A stretch of DNA of 64,000 bases from Candidatus Aminicenantota bacterium (GTDB taxonomy: Bacteria > Acidobacteriota > Aminicenantia > Aminicenantales > Saccharicenantaceae): positions 186,001 through 250,000 of the forward strand of contig JACIYJ010000002.1 of NCBI GenBank assembly GCA_014360015.1. The letters run 5' to 3'. Within the stretch, counting starts at the first letter, position 1. Every line of letters begins with the position of its first letter. The position numbers and the translations under genes were made by a program. This document shows positions 9,073 to 59,554 of this stretch, piece after piece. The notes beneath the pieces are model-generated. The model did not search any database, was not told where the DNA came from, and was given only the letters and a program-made list of their open reading frames with translations.

Positions 9073-10815
9073 ATGAGGATGAAAAAGTTTTTTTTGAGGA
9101 TGCAGGTCGCTTCCGGGACGGTTATTTTTATCATCTGTTCACTTCTGGGCATTTTCACTATCCGGCAATTGCGAACAACTGAAATCAACAATCAGGTCAG
9201 CGAACTGACCGAGCTGGCTCTGGCCATGACGGTGGAGATACGGCCCTATGACCAAATGGACGACAGCCGTCTCGAGCAGATTCTGACCACCCAGGCCAGA
9301 ATTTCCCGGGTCAGAGTTACGCTGATTGACCCCTTGGGTAAAGTCATCTTTGACACGGAAAAAAAAGCTGGGGAGCTGGAAAGTCATCGCTACCGACCTG
9401 AAATTGACCGGGCTCTGGCTGGTGAGGTAGGCTGGATTGTCCGTTACAGTGATACCCTGAGAAAGAAGATGCTCTACGTGGCTGTACCCGTCAGAAAGAA
9501 TGCTCAAGTGACAGGAGTCTGCCGGGTCAGCCGTTTTCTTGACTTGGCTGTTCATTCTTACGAACAGACCAGAAATCGTCTTCTGATTGGCTTTGCTTTA
9601 TTCATTCTGCTCGGTTGGGGATTGTCTTATCTTCTTTTAAGAAAACTTTTGAAACCTCTGGAAAACCTGTCATTAGTCGTTGATCAGGCGGCAGAAGGCG
9701 ATACTGGTCTTCCGGTCAGAACCTCCCTGATGGCGGTTCTCGGACCCCTGGTTGCAGGTATTAACCGCTTAATATCCAGGAATCAGGAACTGGCTGAATC
9801 TCTAAAAGAAGATAAAGAGATATTCCAGACTTTGATCGATTCTACTGAAGAGGGCTGGCTGCTGGTTGACCCAGCGGGTAAGATTATTATGGCTAACCAG
9901 AGCCTGCGCCGGATGTTTCCTGAAATTGGCCCGGGTAGCGAATTCTACTGGCAGACACTCAGATGTCCTGAACTGAATGAGCTTTTTGAGCGGGCTCATA
10001 AGTCAGAAAAGCCCATCGAGGGCCAGTTCGAAAAAGACGGTCGAACCTTTTCCTGCCTGGCCAGCTGGTTACCACTCAGACAGCGGTTTCTGCTGAGATT
10101 TTCTGATATCACTGAGACGAAAGAGCTGGCAGAAAGAAAGAAAGAATTTGTGGCTAACCTGGCCCATGAATTGAAAACTCCCTTAACAGCCATCAAGGGA
10201 TTTCTGGAAACTCTGGAAAATGAAAATCTGAGTCAGGAAGGAAAAAATTATCTGAAAATCATTCAGAGAAATACCGAGCGACTGGTACGTCTGGTAGAAG
10301 ACCTGTCCAGATTATCGGAGCTTGAAGAAAAAGGTCCACAGCTCAAAAAAGAAGCAGTCAACCTGGCCGACATGGTCCGAACGGTGGTTAAAGCTTATTT
10401 TCAACCAGCTACAGAAAAGGGTTTATATTTGAAGGTGGAAGCAGAGCCTATTCCGGAAATTTATGCTGATGCTTTCCAGATGGAACAGCTGATTTTAAAC
10501 CTGGTGGACAATGCCATCCGCTACACGGAAAAAGGGGGAGTAACGGTCAGGCTGGAGAATAAGGATAACGGAGTGTTGTTGTCTGTTTCTGATACTGGAA
10601 TTGGAATCCCGGAAGAACATCTGCCGCGAATTTTTGAGCGGTTCTATGTTGTGGATAAGTCTCGTTCGAGAAAAACTGGCGGCACCGGTCTTGGATTGTC
10701 TATAGTTAAACACATCGTCCTGGCCCATCAGGGGAAAATTGAAGTCAGAAGTGCGCCGGGCTTTGGCACCACCTTTTCAGTCTGGTTACCACCGGGTTCA
10801 GCTGATAGCCAATAA
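9073..10815 (+). CDS. PhoR-like membrane sensor histidine kinase
   Basis: The 580-residue kinase has an N-terminal transmembrane helix (about 10-30), a periplasmic sensor region, and a second helix (about 170-190, LLIGFALFILLGWGLSYLLL). HAMP-like and PAS-like segments follow, the latter around ESTEEGWLLVDPAGKIIMAN. The HisKA H-box LAHELKTPLTAIKGF carries phospho-acceptor His365. The HATPase region has the N-box (NLVDNAIRYTEKGG), G1 (DTGIGIPEEHL), F-box (IFERFYVVDKSRSRKTGG) and G2 (GTGLGLSIVKHI). It resembles PhoR/WalK kinases. No response regulator gene is adjacent, so the partner is unknown. A TATAAT at 9009-9014 is a candidate -10. Confidence 0.92.
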   Translation: MRMKKFFLRMQVASGTVIFIICSLLGIFTIRQLRTTEINNQVSELTELALAMTVEIRPYDQMDDSRLEQILTTQARISRVRVTLIDPLGKVIFDTEKKAGELESHRYRPEIDRALAGEVGWIVRYSDTLRKKMLYVAVPVRKNAQVTGVCRVSRFLDLAVHSYEQTRNRLLIGFALFILLGWGLSYLLLRKLLKPLENLSLVVDQAAEGDTGLPVRTSLMAVLGPLVAGINRLISRNQELAESLKEDKEIFQTLIDSTEEGWLLVDPAGKIIMANQSLRRMFPEIGPGSEFYWQTLRCPELNELFERAHKSEKPIEGQFEKDGRTFSCLASWLPLRQRFLLRFSDITETKELAERKKEFVANLAHELKTPLTAIKGFLETLENENLSQEGKNYLKIIQRNTERLVRLVEDLSRLSELEEKGPQLKKEAVNLADMVRTVVKAYFQPATEKGLYLKVEAEPIPEIYADAFQMEQLILNLVDNAIRYTEKGGVTVRLENKDNGVLLSVSDTGIGIPEEHLPRIFERFYVVDKSRSRKTGGTGLGLSIVKHIVLAHQGKIEVRSAPGFGTTFSVWLPPGSADSQ

Positions 10816-10834
10816 GAGAAAAATCGGCTATAAT
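10806..10834 (+). promoter_or_regulatory. Candidate promoter of dsrC
   Basis: TAGCCA (10806-10811), a 17-bp spacer and a perfect TATAAT (10829-10834) form a plausible sigma-70-type promoter. It starts inside the last codons of the histidine kinase gene. Transcription would begin near 10841, inside the left arm of the inverted repeat at 10834-10861. The -35 matches consensus at only four of six positions. Confidence 0.4.
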
Positions 10835-10861
10835 TCACTCTGAAAATTCTATCGGAGTGAG
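10834..10861 (+). promoter_or_regulatory. Inverted repeat covering the dsrC ribosome-binding site
   Basis: TTCACTCTG (10834-10842) can pair with CGGAGTGAG (10853-10861) as nine base pairs including two G-U pairs, with a 10-base loop. The right arm contains the GGAG ribosome-binding site nine bases before the dsrC ATG. If transcripts start upstream, for example read-through from the kinase gene, the hairpin would mask that site. If transcripts start near 10841, the repeat would act only as a DNA operator. Confidence 0.4.
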
Positions 10862-10866
10862 TAAAA

Positions 10867-11187
10867 ATGCCTGAATTAGAATTCAAGGGCAAAAAGCTTA
10901 AACTTAATGAAGAAGGTTTTTTAACCACCCCGGAATTGTGGGATGAAGAAATCGCTCAGTTTTTAGCTAAGCAGGCTGAAGGAATCGAACAAATGACGGA
11001 AGAACACTGGAAGATCGTTAACTATATTCGGAATTATTATCTTCAGAAAGGTCAGGCCCCGATGATCAGGAAGATGGTCAATGAGACGGGAATTTCCCTT
11101 AAGCATATTTACGAACTTTTTCCTTCGGGTCCGGCTAAAGGGGCTTGCAAGGTAGCTGGTTTGCCCAAGCCGGACGGTTGTGTTTAA
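10867..11187 (+). CDS. dsrC: DsrC-type sulfur-carrier protein
   Basis: The 106-residue protein aligns over its full length with the DsrC/TusE family and ends in the conserved C-terminal arm GACKVAGLPKPDGCV. Both redox cysteines are present: Cys94 and the penultimate Cys105, ten residues apart. This is the pattern of true DsrC, which carries sulfur as a trisulfide for dissimilatory sulfite reductase; TusE-type proteins keep only the last cysteine. No dsrAB, dsrMKJOP or tus genes lie in the window. The gene is convergent, four bases apart, with a cysteine desulfurase gene, a possible persulfide source. Function outside dissimilatory sulfur metabolism is possible. Confidence 0.92.
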   Translation: MPELEFKGKKLKLNEEGFLTTPELWDEEIAQFLAKQAEGIEQMTEEHWKIVNYIRNYYLQKGQAPMIRKMVNETGISLKHIYELFPSGPAKGACKVAGLPKPDGCV

Positions 11188-11191
11188 TGAT

Positions 11192-12355
11192 TCACCCCTT
11201 TTTTTTCTTGAACTCAACTATTTCTCTGACGGCTTGAATGGCGGTCCTGATGTGCTCTTCCGTGTTGAACGGGCCGATGCCAAATCGGACTGCGCCTTTG
11301 ATTTTATCAGTTCCAAGTTGCTCGTGAACTAAAGGAGCACAGTGCAGACCGGTGCGACAAGCGATGTTGTAATCGACATCGAGCATAATGCCCACATCCT
11401 GGGCTTCCATCCCATCAACGTTAAAAGCAATTACGCTGATGTGATTGGTCAGGTCGTCCTGACAGTAGAGAGTCACGCCATCAATCTGTTTTAAGCCATC
11501 AACCAGCATCCGGGTCAATTTCATCTCGTGATGATGAATGTTTTCCAGACCTTTTTCCATCACCCATTTAAGTCCGGCGTGAAGTCCGGCAATGCCCAGA
11601 ACGTTGGGCGTGCCATATTCCAGGCGGTACGGATACTCTTCGAGATGGGTTCTCTGGGCAGAACGAACACCAGTGCCGCCAGCTCGGGTGATCTTGATAT
11701 TCACGCCTTCGGCCACGCATAACCCGCCAATTCCGGTCGGCCCAAGAAGCGATTTATGGCCGGTAAAGGCTACCACATCTATGTTCATTTCCTTCATATC
11801 AATCGGTACCTTGCCAGCAGACTGGGAAGCATCGATGGCGAAAACTACCCCATGTTCTTTGCAGATTCTGCCGATTTCTTTGATGGGTTGAACTGTGCCG
11901 ATGACATTAGAAGCATGATTGACGATGACCAGTTTAGTATTCTTTTTTATTTTTTTCTTGATATCTTCCGGGTGGACAAAGCCGTTTTTATCAAAGGGCA
12001 CGTAATCAACTTCGACACCTTTTAGCGACAAATGATAAAGAGGCCTCAACACGGAATTGTGCTCAATGGTGGTGGTGATGGCATGGTCTCCGGCTTCGAG
12101 CAGGCCAAAAATGATCAGGTTCAAGGCGTCGGTTGAATTATAAGTGAAGCACAGCCGGTTGGGGTCGGAGCCATTAAAAAATTCAGTTAGCATTTTTCTG
12201 GTGTTTTCCACCATCTCTCCGGCTTCCAGGCAGAGGTCATAACCGGAGCGACCTGGATTTACCCCATAATGACGATAGAAGTGATCCATGAATTGATAGA
12301 CTTCTTCTGGCTTGGGATAAGAAGTGGCGCCGTTGTCCAAATAGATGATTTTCAT
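11192..12355 (-). CDS. PLP-dependent cysteine desulfurase family protein
   Basis: The ATG at 12355 is chosen because GGAGG lies eight bases upstream; an upstream in-frame start at 12400 has no such site. The 387-residue protein begins MKIIYLDNGATSYPKPEEV. The PLP-binding lysine is in FTGHKSLLGPTGIGG, and the likely catalytic cysteine is in ACRTGLHCAPLVHEQLG. This matches the class-V aminotransferase subgroup annotated as cysteine desulfurase family (SufS-like, with an RTGLHCAP motif). It would remove sulfur from cysteine as an enzyme-bound persulfide for Fe-S cluster, thiolation or sulfur-carrier pathways. No suf or isc genes are nearby; DsrC is the only sulfur-carrier neighbour. Confidence 0.9.
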   Translation of the reverse strand: MKIIYLDNGATSYPKPEEVYQFMDHFYRHYGVNPGRSGYDLCLEAGEMVENTRKMLTEFFNGSDPNRLCFTYNSTDALNLIIFGLLEAGDHAITTTIEHNSVLRPLYHLSLKGVEVDYVPFDKNGFVHPEDIKKKIKKNTKLVIVNHASNVIGTVQPIKEIGRICKEHGVVFAIDASQSAGKVPIDMKEMNIDVVAFTGHKSLLGPTGIGGLCVAEGVNIKITRAGGTGVRSAQRTHLEEYPYRLEYGTPNVLGIAGLHAGLKWVMEKGLENIHHHEMKLTRMLVDGLKQIDGVTLYCQDDLTNHISVIAFNVDGMEAQDVGIMLDVDYNIACRTGLHCAPLVHEQLGTDKIKGAVRFGIGPFNTEEHIRTAIQAVREIVEFKKKKG

Positions 12356-57857: not shown

Positions 57858-57886
57858 TTGACAGATTAGCATATAAGGTGTATTTT
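57858..57886 (+). promoter_or_regulatory. Promoter of the ArsR redox cassette
   Basis: A perfect TTGACA (57858-57863), a 17-bp spacer and TATTTT (57881-57886) form a strong sigma-70 promoter. The -10 overlaps the left arm of the palindrome at 57883-57916, and transcription would begin near 57893, about 15 bases before the chosen ATG. Confidence 0.6.
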
Positions 57887-57916
57887 ATCATTTCGATATT
57901 TCGCCAAATGATAAAA
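57883..57916. promoter_or_regulatory. Perfect 11-bp inverted repeat, likely ArsR-type operator
   Basis: TTTTATCATTT (57883-57893) and AAATGATAAAA (57906-57916) are exact reverse complements with a 12-bp spacer. The element covers the -10, the transcription start and the regulator's start codon (ATG at 57908 is in the right arm). Imperfect AT-rich 12-2-12 style operators at this position are typical of ArsR/SmtB repressors; autoregulation is inferred. Confidence 0.6.
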
Positions 57917-58303
57917 CATAGCTTAAAAGAAATAAACAAAATTCTGGCAGCCCTGGCTGAAACTAACAGATTACGCATTCTGATGATGCTGAAAACCAGA
58001 CCATTGGCTGTTTGTGAGATTCGAGAGATTCTTGGCCTTTCGTTTTCAACTGTTTCCAAGCATCTCTCTGTTCTGAGAGAAGCCGGGTTAATCGATTTTG
58101 AGAAAGATGGCAAGTGGGTTAATTACCGGTTCAACCAGGAGCTTCCAGAGGTAGCCAGAGAATGGCTGGCTCTGCTCTTAGAGCAAATTTCTTCTGATCC
58201 CCAGATTCAGAGCGATTTAGAAAAAATTTTTGTGGTGGATAAATTCAAAATCTGTCAGAAACCAGATTCTGAAATCGATAATTATGAAAACAAGGAGGAA
58301 TAA
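57908..58303 (+). CDS. ArsR/SmtB-family winged-helix repressor
   Basis: ATG at 57908 is preferred because the promoter starts transcription downstream of the GTG at 57878; the message would be almost leaderless. The 131-residue protein has the ArsR fold: LAALAETNRLRILMML, then LAVCEIREILGLSFSTVSKH and LSVLREAGLIDFEKDGKWVNYRF. Where classical ArsR has ELCVCDL (two Cys for arsenite), it has one, Cys36 (LAVCEI), with another cysteine near the end (Cys116). So the inducer may be a thiol-reactive or metal ligand. It heads a four-gene cassette. Confidence 0.88.
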   Translation: MIKHSLKEINKILAALAETNRLRILMMLKTRPLAVCEIREILGLSFSTVSKHLSVLREAGLIDFEKDGKWVNYRFNQELPEVAREWLALLLEQISSDPQIQSDLEKIFVVDKFKICQKPDSEIDNYENKEE

Positions 58304-58306
58304 AAC

Positions 58307-58669
58307 ATGAAAAAAGCAATCTTAGTTTGTACTTGCAGCTTTGCCTGTCCTAGCATGAAAGATTTGAATTTCGCCGAGCTGGCAGAAAGGGTCAGGCTGG
58401 AACTGCCGCACGACTATATGCTGCTTCATCCCCGTCTCTGCGAAGCTAACGGTGAGGCGATGATGGAAGACCTGCTCAAGAAAGACGGTGTGGTTTACAT
58501 CACGGCTGCCTGCAAGCCAGAAAAACAGGCTAAATTGCTGCGGGATGGTTTCCAGAAAGCCGGTGTACCTATGGATAACCTGAGATTTAAGCCGGTCTCC
58601 ATTCAATTTAAGAACACTGAACAGGCTTTCGAAGAAATCAAAAAAGCTTTAGAGGAGTTAGGCAGATGA
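58307..58669 (+). CDS. Stand-alone HdrA N-terminal-like redox protein
   Basis: AAGGAGG lies 10 bases upstream. The 120-residue protein has five cysteines: VCTCSFAC (Cys8, Cys10, Cys14), RLCEANGE (Cys45) and TAACKPEKQ (Cys69). The pattern resembles the small N-terminal domain of HdrA (CHCG motif, a middle Cys, and a Cys before a PxxxxxL helix), which binds a [4Fe-4S] cluster, but here without the flavin domain. It overlaps the ferredoxin gene by four bases (ATGA). It probably binds an Fe-S cluster and passes electrons to or from the ferredoxin; assignment is tentative. Confidence 0.6.
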   Translation: MKKAILVCTCSFACPSMKDLNFAELAERVRLELPHDYMLLHPRLCEANGEAMMEDLLKKDGVVYITAACKPEKQAKLLRDGFQKAGVPMDNLRFKPVSIQFKNTEQAFEEIKKALEELGR

Positions 58670-58959
58670 GTGGTCGTTCTCATTATCTTGGGATTCCCAG
58701 AGAAAAAATTCCCTGGTATCCGACCATCAATCCGGACCTCTGTACTAACTGCGGCAGTTGTATTAATTTCTGTGCTAATAATGTTTTTGAACCAGGTGAT
58801 TCCCATCCCGAAGTGGTCAATCCCCTAAACTGTGTCGTGGGTTGTAGCGCCTGTGCCCGGGAATGCCCGGCTGAGGCTATCACCTTCCCCAGCCAGAAAA
58901 AGCTGGTGGCTCTCTTGCAGAAGCTCCGGGAGGAAATGAGCTCAGGCCCGAAGGAATAA
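58666..58959 (+). CDS. 2[4Fe-4S] ferredoxin
   Basis: The 97-residue protein has IPREKIPWYPTI before the first cluster motif CTNCGSCINFC (Cys26, 29, 32, 36), then CVVGCSACAREC (Cys56, 60, 63, 67) for a second cluster. The C-terminal helix is charged. It is a low-potential electron carrier in the cytoplasm and is translationally coupled to the HdrA-like gene upstream. Confidence 0.9.
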   Translation: MSGRSHYLGIPREKIPWYPTINPDLCTNCGSCINFCANNVFEPGDSHPEVVNPLNCVVGCSACARECPAEAITFPSQKKLVALLQKLREEMSSGPKE

Positions 58960-59002
58960 AAAGGATTATTAAAAAAACAAAATAAATAAAAGAGAGATAA
59001 AA

Positions 59003-59350
59003 ATGAAAAAAGTTAAAATCATCCTGGATGGCGAAATCAGGTCCTGCTGTTCCAGCTATCCTCCGGACCTGGTTTGGGAGATTGTTCAGGGCTGGCTTGG
59101 AGATAAAGCCGAGCTGGAAGTTATTGATAAAAACCAGGCTAACTGGCAGCCGGACCCCTTGGCTTCTCTGGCAGAAAAGTACTTCGGCTCAGCCATCTAT
59201 CCTCTGGTTTATGTAGAAGATAAGATAGCGATGATTGGCGATATCCCTGATGCTCAGACCCTGATGGAGATGATAGAAGGCAAAGTTGCCTATGGAGTGA
59301 GCGGAGAAGACATTCTGGATGAAGCCAGGAGGCATGGGCTTTTAAAATAA
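59003..59350 (+). CDS. Thioredoxin/ArsD-like protein with vicinal cysteines
   Basis: The 115-residue protein starts after AGAGAGAT. It reads as a thioredoxin-like beta-alpha-beta unit: KKVKIILDG strand, then SCCSSYPPDLVWEIV with vicinal Cys15-Cys16 at the active-site position, and a second half with YPLVYVEDKIAMIGDIP (a cis-Pro-like turn) and a helix. ArsD metallochaperones have a similar CC motif and V-G-x-x-P ending, but lengths and context differ. It is likely a thiol carrier or metal(loid)-binding protein in the ArsR cassette. No homolog can be confirmed by eye. Confidence 0.55.
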   Translation: MKKVKIILDGEIRSCCSSYPPDLVWEIVQGWLGDKAELEVIDKNQANWQPDPLASLAEKYFGSAIYPLVYVEDKIAMIGDIPDAQTLMEMIEGKVAYGVSGEDILDEARRHGLLK

Positions 59351-59554
59351 TTGAAGTAGATAGCTCGCTTGCGGTTGGTGACTGCTTTTTGAAGCCATGA
59401 TTTATCGGCGGGTGCCTTTATTTAAAAGTTCAGAATACAGAGTAAAATTAAGATCCAGATCAGAAAATTGCGACACCTGAGAACACCTCGGCCGAACCTG
59501 AAACCCGCTTTTGATTCTGAATCTCTTTATCTAAAAAATTAAAAAATTAACCCA

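Follow-up and report, generated by a model that had tools for sequence, protein, structure and literature searches.

What is the function of a compact group of four small genes that is headed by an ArsR-family repressor gene and carries redox protein genes, yet lacks an arsenite efflux gene of its own? The question is raised by positions 57858-59350 of the window, by which we mean the whole 64,000-nt stretch of DNA analysed here, from an Aminicenantes-type MAG of 2.7 Mb and 94% completeness. All four genes named in an earlier note on this DNA are present, in a single plus-strand unit: an ArsR/SmtB-family repressor (ArsR, 57911..58303), a 120-aa stand-alone putative Fe-S protein resembling the HdrA N-terminal domain (P120, 58307..58669), an eight-cysteine ferredoxin of the 2x[4Fe-4S] type (Fd, 58666..58959) and a 115-aa thioredoxin-fold-like protein with vicinal cysteines (P115, 59003..59350). 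Fd is coupled to the end of P120 by an ATGA overlap, as that note had described. A weakly supported terminator-like hairpin followed by T5 (59371..59385, plus strand) lies 20 nt past the P115 stop, the hairpin scan having returned five terminator-like sites against 1.7 expected. On the opposite strand the unit has TldD/PmbA-type genes as its upstream neighbours and an MBL-fold gene on the downstream side, all named by eye. The same genome holds a second ArsR-P120-Fd copy (L004 7917-8902; G000:C25, minus strand) without P115, whose P120 is 83% identical to that of the cassette. The ArsR of this copy has neither a start codon at the conserved position nor an operator, and the copy therefore looks decayed or differently controlled.

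The cassette is preceded by a sigma-70-like promoter, TTGACA-17-TATTTT (57858..57886, plus strand, 10/12 matches), whose -10 element overlaps a perfect 11-bp inverted repeat with a 12-nt spacer (57883..57916), the putative ArsR operator. With the arms TTTTATCATTT/AAATGATAAAA, the repeat is unique within the window (0 expected in shuffles), and its right arm contains the ArsR ATG at 57911. This start was chosen by alignment with orthologues; the GTG at 57878, where the longest open reading frame begins, is an improbable start, since this codon sits immediately 5′ of the operator and in the orthologues the operator comes first. Both elements were correctly recognised earlier and are kept in sister genomes: the promoter and the operator core TATAATATCATTTCGATATTTGGCGAAATGA recur 5′ of the orthologous ArsR genes of five of them (G002, G006, G010, G012, G013), with a full TATAAT as -10 and the core TATCATTTCGATATTTGGCGAAATGA, and in a weaker form in a sixth (G003). 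This recurrence argues that the repeat is more than a chance palindrome, and conservation in most sister genomes supports a candidate operator through which ArsR is predicted to regulate itself. The protein matches HTH_5 (E 1.8e-15) and passes the metalloregulator model HTH_metalloreg with 83.5 bits against a cut-off of 55. It had been taken for a one-cysteine variant; it instead has two cysteines, in AVCEIR and in a C-terminal ICx motif (ICQ in the window's ArsR), both invariant in 8/8 aligned cassette ArsRs. Two conserved cysteines permit arsenite as the ligand and do not prove it.

P120 matches no Pfam or NCBIfam family, its relatives match no Pfam model convincingly, and FeThRed_B, the model of the ferredoxin:thioredoxin reductase catalytic subunit, finds no match in P120 or its 17 relatives. 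Its structure was modelled with AlphaFold2 (pLDDT 84). In a fold search the seven HdrA entries all rank above every other fold (Z 9.7-11.3, the next at 8.0), and Foldseek matches the model over its whole length to the HdrA N-terminal domain (probability 1.00, E 7e-5). Direct sequence comparison of P120 with the PDB gives weak evidence; the P120 profile matches a full-length bacterial HdrA at E 1.5e-9, and a comparison of that bacterial protein with the solved HdrAs gives values of up to 1.9e-26, a stepping stone that links P120 to HdrA in sequence as well as in fold. P120 is thus predicted to be an HdrA N-terminal domain standing alone, and it appears to represent a protein family without a name, matched by no described family. 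The proposal of a five-cysteine HdrA-N-like protein holds in its detail too: C8, C10, C14, C45 and C69 are invariant in the alignment of 18 relatives. Four of the five have HdrA counterparts (CxC, C, AAC), and C14 lies in a three-residue insertion that HdrA does not have. In HdrA, one ligand of the N-domain cluster, Cys197, comes from the flavin domain of the partner subunit (PMC9012536); in P120, C14 may supply the ligand that HdrA borrows.

The resemblance to HdrA, together with a dsrC gene that lies 47 kb away in the window (10867-11187, PF04358, E 7e-37), could point to a module of sulfur metabolism in which DsrC or Hdr takes part, and a partnership with DsrC had been suggested. That suggestion is not supported: neither a dsrC homologue nor, by regular-expression search, a protein with the HdrB-type CCG motif occurs in any examined P120 locus, and P120 has no flavin domain. 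We regard a sulfur module as very improbable.

Fd matches Fer4 families of Pfam and combines a family-specific N-terminal signature, GIPREKIPWYPTI, with a second motif, Cx3Cx2Cx3C, in the family alignment; its relatives in L009, L013 and L014 have Asp in place of the second cysteine of the first motif. A small 'CSC' protein fused to a ferredoxin (L055_33) was considered and set aside, the likeness having been seen by eye only, with no HMM support. With a ferredoxin of its own beside it, an HdrA-N domain with one predicted cluster most readily suggests an electron relay, and in this respect the thiol/Fe-S electron relay envisaged earlier is a reasonable reading.

The fourth product, P115, contains a single CC pair, C15 and C16, as its sole cysteines, and no CxxC; the CC-motif thioredoxin-like protein of the earlier note is recovered in that the poor AlphaFold2 model (pLDDT 62) has thioredoxin-like topology. 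Using this model, Foldseek ranks ArsD first (3mwh/3kgk, probability 0.98) and SA0789 (1xg8) at 0.91, and VIA ties ArsD with glutaredoxins. The first rank of ArsD in Foldseek, the placement of the CC pair where ArsD has its cysteine pair, and the genuine ArsD encoded in several P120 islands favour an arsenic-binding or metallochaperone function, in which P115 would be an ArsD-like As(III) carrier and the five thiols of P120 would sequester the metalloid, electron transfer being secondary. Against it, hhalign gives P115 and ArsD a probability of 12%, no NCBIfam model, including that of ArsD (NF033727), matches P115 up to E=1, the third cysteine of ArsD is missing, and both the low confidence of the model and the level standing of glutaredoxins in VIA weaken the structural argument. 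We accordingly rejected P115 as an ArsD. A ferredoxin accompanies P120 constantly, a pattern that favours electron flow, and we consider metal binding as the main role improbable. P115 is probably a thioredoxin-fold-like protein that is not an ArsD, and no described family covers it in Pfam and NCBIfam searches; like P120, it stands outside the well-characterised families, as had been anticipated.

The earlier note had also asked whether the genes occur together in other genomes, and they do. P120 is patchy, being found in 7/19 genomes of the window's genus, in 4/395 genomes of a phylum sample around a Syntrophaceae genome and in 4/395 of a sample around a Bacteroidetes genome; its profile matched in 3/400 genomes around a Chloroflexi genome, one of the three matches being a real HdrA. 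Relatives at 70-78% identity come from Marinimicrobia, Chloroflexi, Kapabacteria, UASB270, Bacteroidetes and Syntrophaceae, several from short MAG contigs, so that single taxon labels may be wrong. The P120 and Fd pair recurs across at least six phyla, with Fd adjoining P120 in nearly every complete locus at gaps of mostly -11 to +13 nt. P115 follows P120 without exception in the genus (7/7 P120 genomes versus 0/12 others, Fisher p 2e-5), and among 198 relatives it appears only alongside P120, including in another P120 genome, G037. In the P120 tree the window's genus forms one clade; at depth the branching departs from phylum lines, Marinimicrobia grouping with Chloroflexi and a sequence from the Syntrophaceae phylum sample with Acidobacteria. 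This topology fits horizontal transfer, although support is weak for many inner branches. A search of plasmid records gave no P120 homologue.

A contig of another Aminicenantales family reads CoA_binding-P120-Fd-two unidentified genes-DUF169-like-P115-SufC-SufB (L042 6916-11881), and a further P120 on that contig lies close to an FmdE gene. Directly 5′ of P120, an unnamed small family of the form M-C-S-C...GLDQVVFTTI is encoded at L008 7689-7967, L013 5958-6227, L014 1597-1881 and L015 7634-7957; its L014 member has no Pfam match. Thioredoxin_3-like proteins lie beside P120-Fd at L008 8707-8967, L015 8697-8957 and L012 7413-7724, and these have lost the CxxC and kept a cysteine near the last strand (LVC, LMC, ILC).

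The neighbourhood of the pair points to arsenic. Outside Aminicenantes, acr3 genes above the NCBI curated cut-off lie within a few kb of P120 in 10/18 loci (L008, L011, L012, L013, L015, L018, L035, L037, L052, L055), for which we estimate a chance of about 1e-15 under a generous assumption of three acr3 per genome. Not counted among the ten are the acr3 of L017, cut by the contig end, that of L009, weak and far below the cut-off, and the first gene of L014, which was dropped because no NCBIfam acr3 model matches it. ArsA is encoded in L012, L013, L017, L018 and L019, ArsD in L012, L013, L017 and L019, and ArsC-like proteins in L008, L012, L013, L015, L018 and L052. The gene order is arsR-P120-Fd-arsA-CMD-arsD, other genes, then acr3 in L017, where 2 nt separate Fd from arsA, and arsC-acr3-permease-USP-CoA_binding-arsR-P120-Fd-P5CR in L052. 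In G012 and G013 the cassette, with all four genes, is immediately adjacent to acr3; in G003 the distance is 2.5 kb. Other recurrent companions are ArsP_1 permeases, Thioredoxin_3, Trx/CcdA, DGC, FmdE, P5CR-like proteins and SufBC. We consider the arsenic link of P120-Fd well supported by this neighbourhood. Some P120 loci lie beside ArsP_1/SaoE-like permeases instead of acr3, and the substrate could therefore be another thiophilic metal(loid).

The absence of classical arsenic genes, claimed earlier, stands for acr3 within the 64-kb window and falls beyond it: the window's genome has an acr3 on a different contig (C27:159139-160230), near P5CR-like and SufBC genes, and in relatives the P120-Fd pair sits inside ars islands. 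This acr3 was considered as a gene co-regulated with the cassette and rejected; because it has its own, different palindrome at its promoter, the two do not form one regulon by motif. Across the genus, acr3 presence does not track P120 (5/7 versus 6/12, p 0.63), and G037 and G042, P120-bearing Aminicenantes genomes of other families, have no acr3 match. Within the genus, acr3 genes have in common a promoter carrying the palindrome ATGAA-N4-6-TTCATATAT; their shared leader, GGCTTTGA...TCAAAGC(C/T)T(T/G)CCTGA, might fold into a hairpin and is a possible RNA element (promoter and leader sites at L044 8232-8460, minus strand; L039 3780-3988; L040 5625-5900, minus strand); an Rfam search of these leaders gave nothing above threshold. 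Downstream of P120-Fd in L035, a natural ArsD-Acr3 fusion protein is encoded (10332-11723).

ArsR control and the ars-island context together lead us to propose a relay, induced by arsenic, whose targets for reduction would be thiols or arsenic-thiol adducts. Our preferred reading, tentative and at a little less than an even chance, is that the cassette is under ArsR repression and serves as an accessory to anaerobic defence against arsenic (metalloids), built around a flavin-free electron relay. A thiophilic metalloid, most likely As(III), would bind the two-cysteine ArsR and lift repression at the operator. Fd, judged by its family, would take low-potential electrons from the ferredoxin pool of the cell and pass them to P120, which would act as a single-cluster relay equivalent to the HdrA N-terminal domain without its flavin domain, C14 perhaps replacing the partner-derived ligand. 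P120 would then act on a thioredoxin-fold partner, reducing its disulfide or an arsenic-thiol adduct that it carries; as position and co-occurrence suggest, this partner would be P115 with its CC pair here and Thioredoxin_3 proteins in other islands. The reduced dithiol could handle arsenic itself or hand it over for Acr3 efflux. The cluster, the direction of electron flow and the acceptor are all presumptive; a thioredoxin-fold thiol acceptor is probable, since P115 comes just after Fd, as do Thioredoxin_3 proteins in L008 and L015.

We also considered other destinations for the electrons. The pair might be the reductant branch of arsenate reductase, with ferredoxin, P120, thioredoxin and ArsC in series replacing NADPH-thioredoxin reductase in anaerobes. 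ArsC-like, Trx, Thioredoxin_3 and CcdA genes in many P120 islands fit such a route, and for Fusibacter sp. 3D3 the passage of electrons from ferredoxin to ArsC has been suggested (PMC9751042). However, several examined P120 loci lack arsC, and the window's genome, with two P120-Fd copies, has no match to either of the two ArsC models tested; we see this branch as possible, on balance unlikely. That P120-Fd, with or without P115, is a ferredoxin-driven flavin-free reductase acting on arsenic itself, on As(V) in genomes that have no ArsC or on As(III)-thiol species towards lower oxidation states, has in our estimate a small chance; if true, low-potential electron supply would be a branch of arsenic detoxification in anaerobes that has gone unrecognised until now. 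A third destination would be Fe-S protection or repair under metalloid stress, in which P120-Fd and a minimal SufBC rebuild or feed As(III)-damaged clusters. SufC and SufB genes directly after or near P120-Fd in L008, L014 and L042, and SufB/SufC-like genes near the acr3 of the window's genome, would suit that role, but most P120 islands have no SufBC, and HdrA-N domains are, to our knowledge, electron carriers and not scaffolds. Repair is in our view improbable, and an accessory relay of metalloid defence remains our preferred reading.

Islands of ars genes are among the best-catalogued resistance clusters, yet the P120-Fd pair has no family name despite its recurrence in them across phyla, and we found no paper describing it in the open-access literature covered. 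If the pair feeds ferredoxin electrons into arsenic handling, this would explain how strict anaerobes drive the detoxification of arsenic without NADPH-thioredoxin reductase, and it would mean that the HdrA N-terminal domain can act alone as a redox module.

Compared with known systems, P120 shares with the HdrA of HdrABC (PDB 5odc, 7bkb, 8rvu) the predicted fold over residues 1-120 and the CxC...C...AAC cysteines, but it ends at 120 aa, without the FAD/thioredoxin-reductase domain and without fused ferredoxin domains, Fd being a separate gene; it also has the extra invariant C14, adjoins ArsR and ars genes, and has no neighbour with the HdrB-type CCG motif at the examined loci. With ars operons and islands (arsR-acr3-arsC-arsA-arsD) the cassette has ArsR control in common, and in relatives P120-Fd is embedded in such islands, whereas neither an efflux gene nor one for arsenate reductase is part of the window's unit, and we found no described ars component that P120, Fd or P115 would match. 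P115 resembles ArsD (3mwh, 3kgk) in the modelled thioredoxin-like topology and in vicinal cysteines before helix 1; ArsD adds a third cysteine five residues later, which P115 lacks, while P115 has an extended C-terminus and weak profile similarity. HgcB of the mercury-methylation pair hgcAB, which is also ArsR-controlled (PMC10349881), is the closest NCBIfam model of Fd, at 42.8 bits far under its cut-off of 99, and no hgcA is found among the cassette genes. In the anaerobe Fusibacter sp. 3D3, genes for a ferredoxin and a redox-active disulfide protein likewise lie beside arsenic genes, in the arsC-1 context (PMC9751042), but no HdrA-N-like protein was reported there. The cassette is thus neither an HdrA, lacking the flavin domain, nor an ArsD nor an HgcB; at its core is an unnamed protein family, and within ars islands P120-Fd would function much as a fragment of HdrA.
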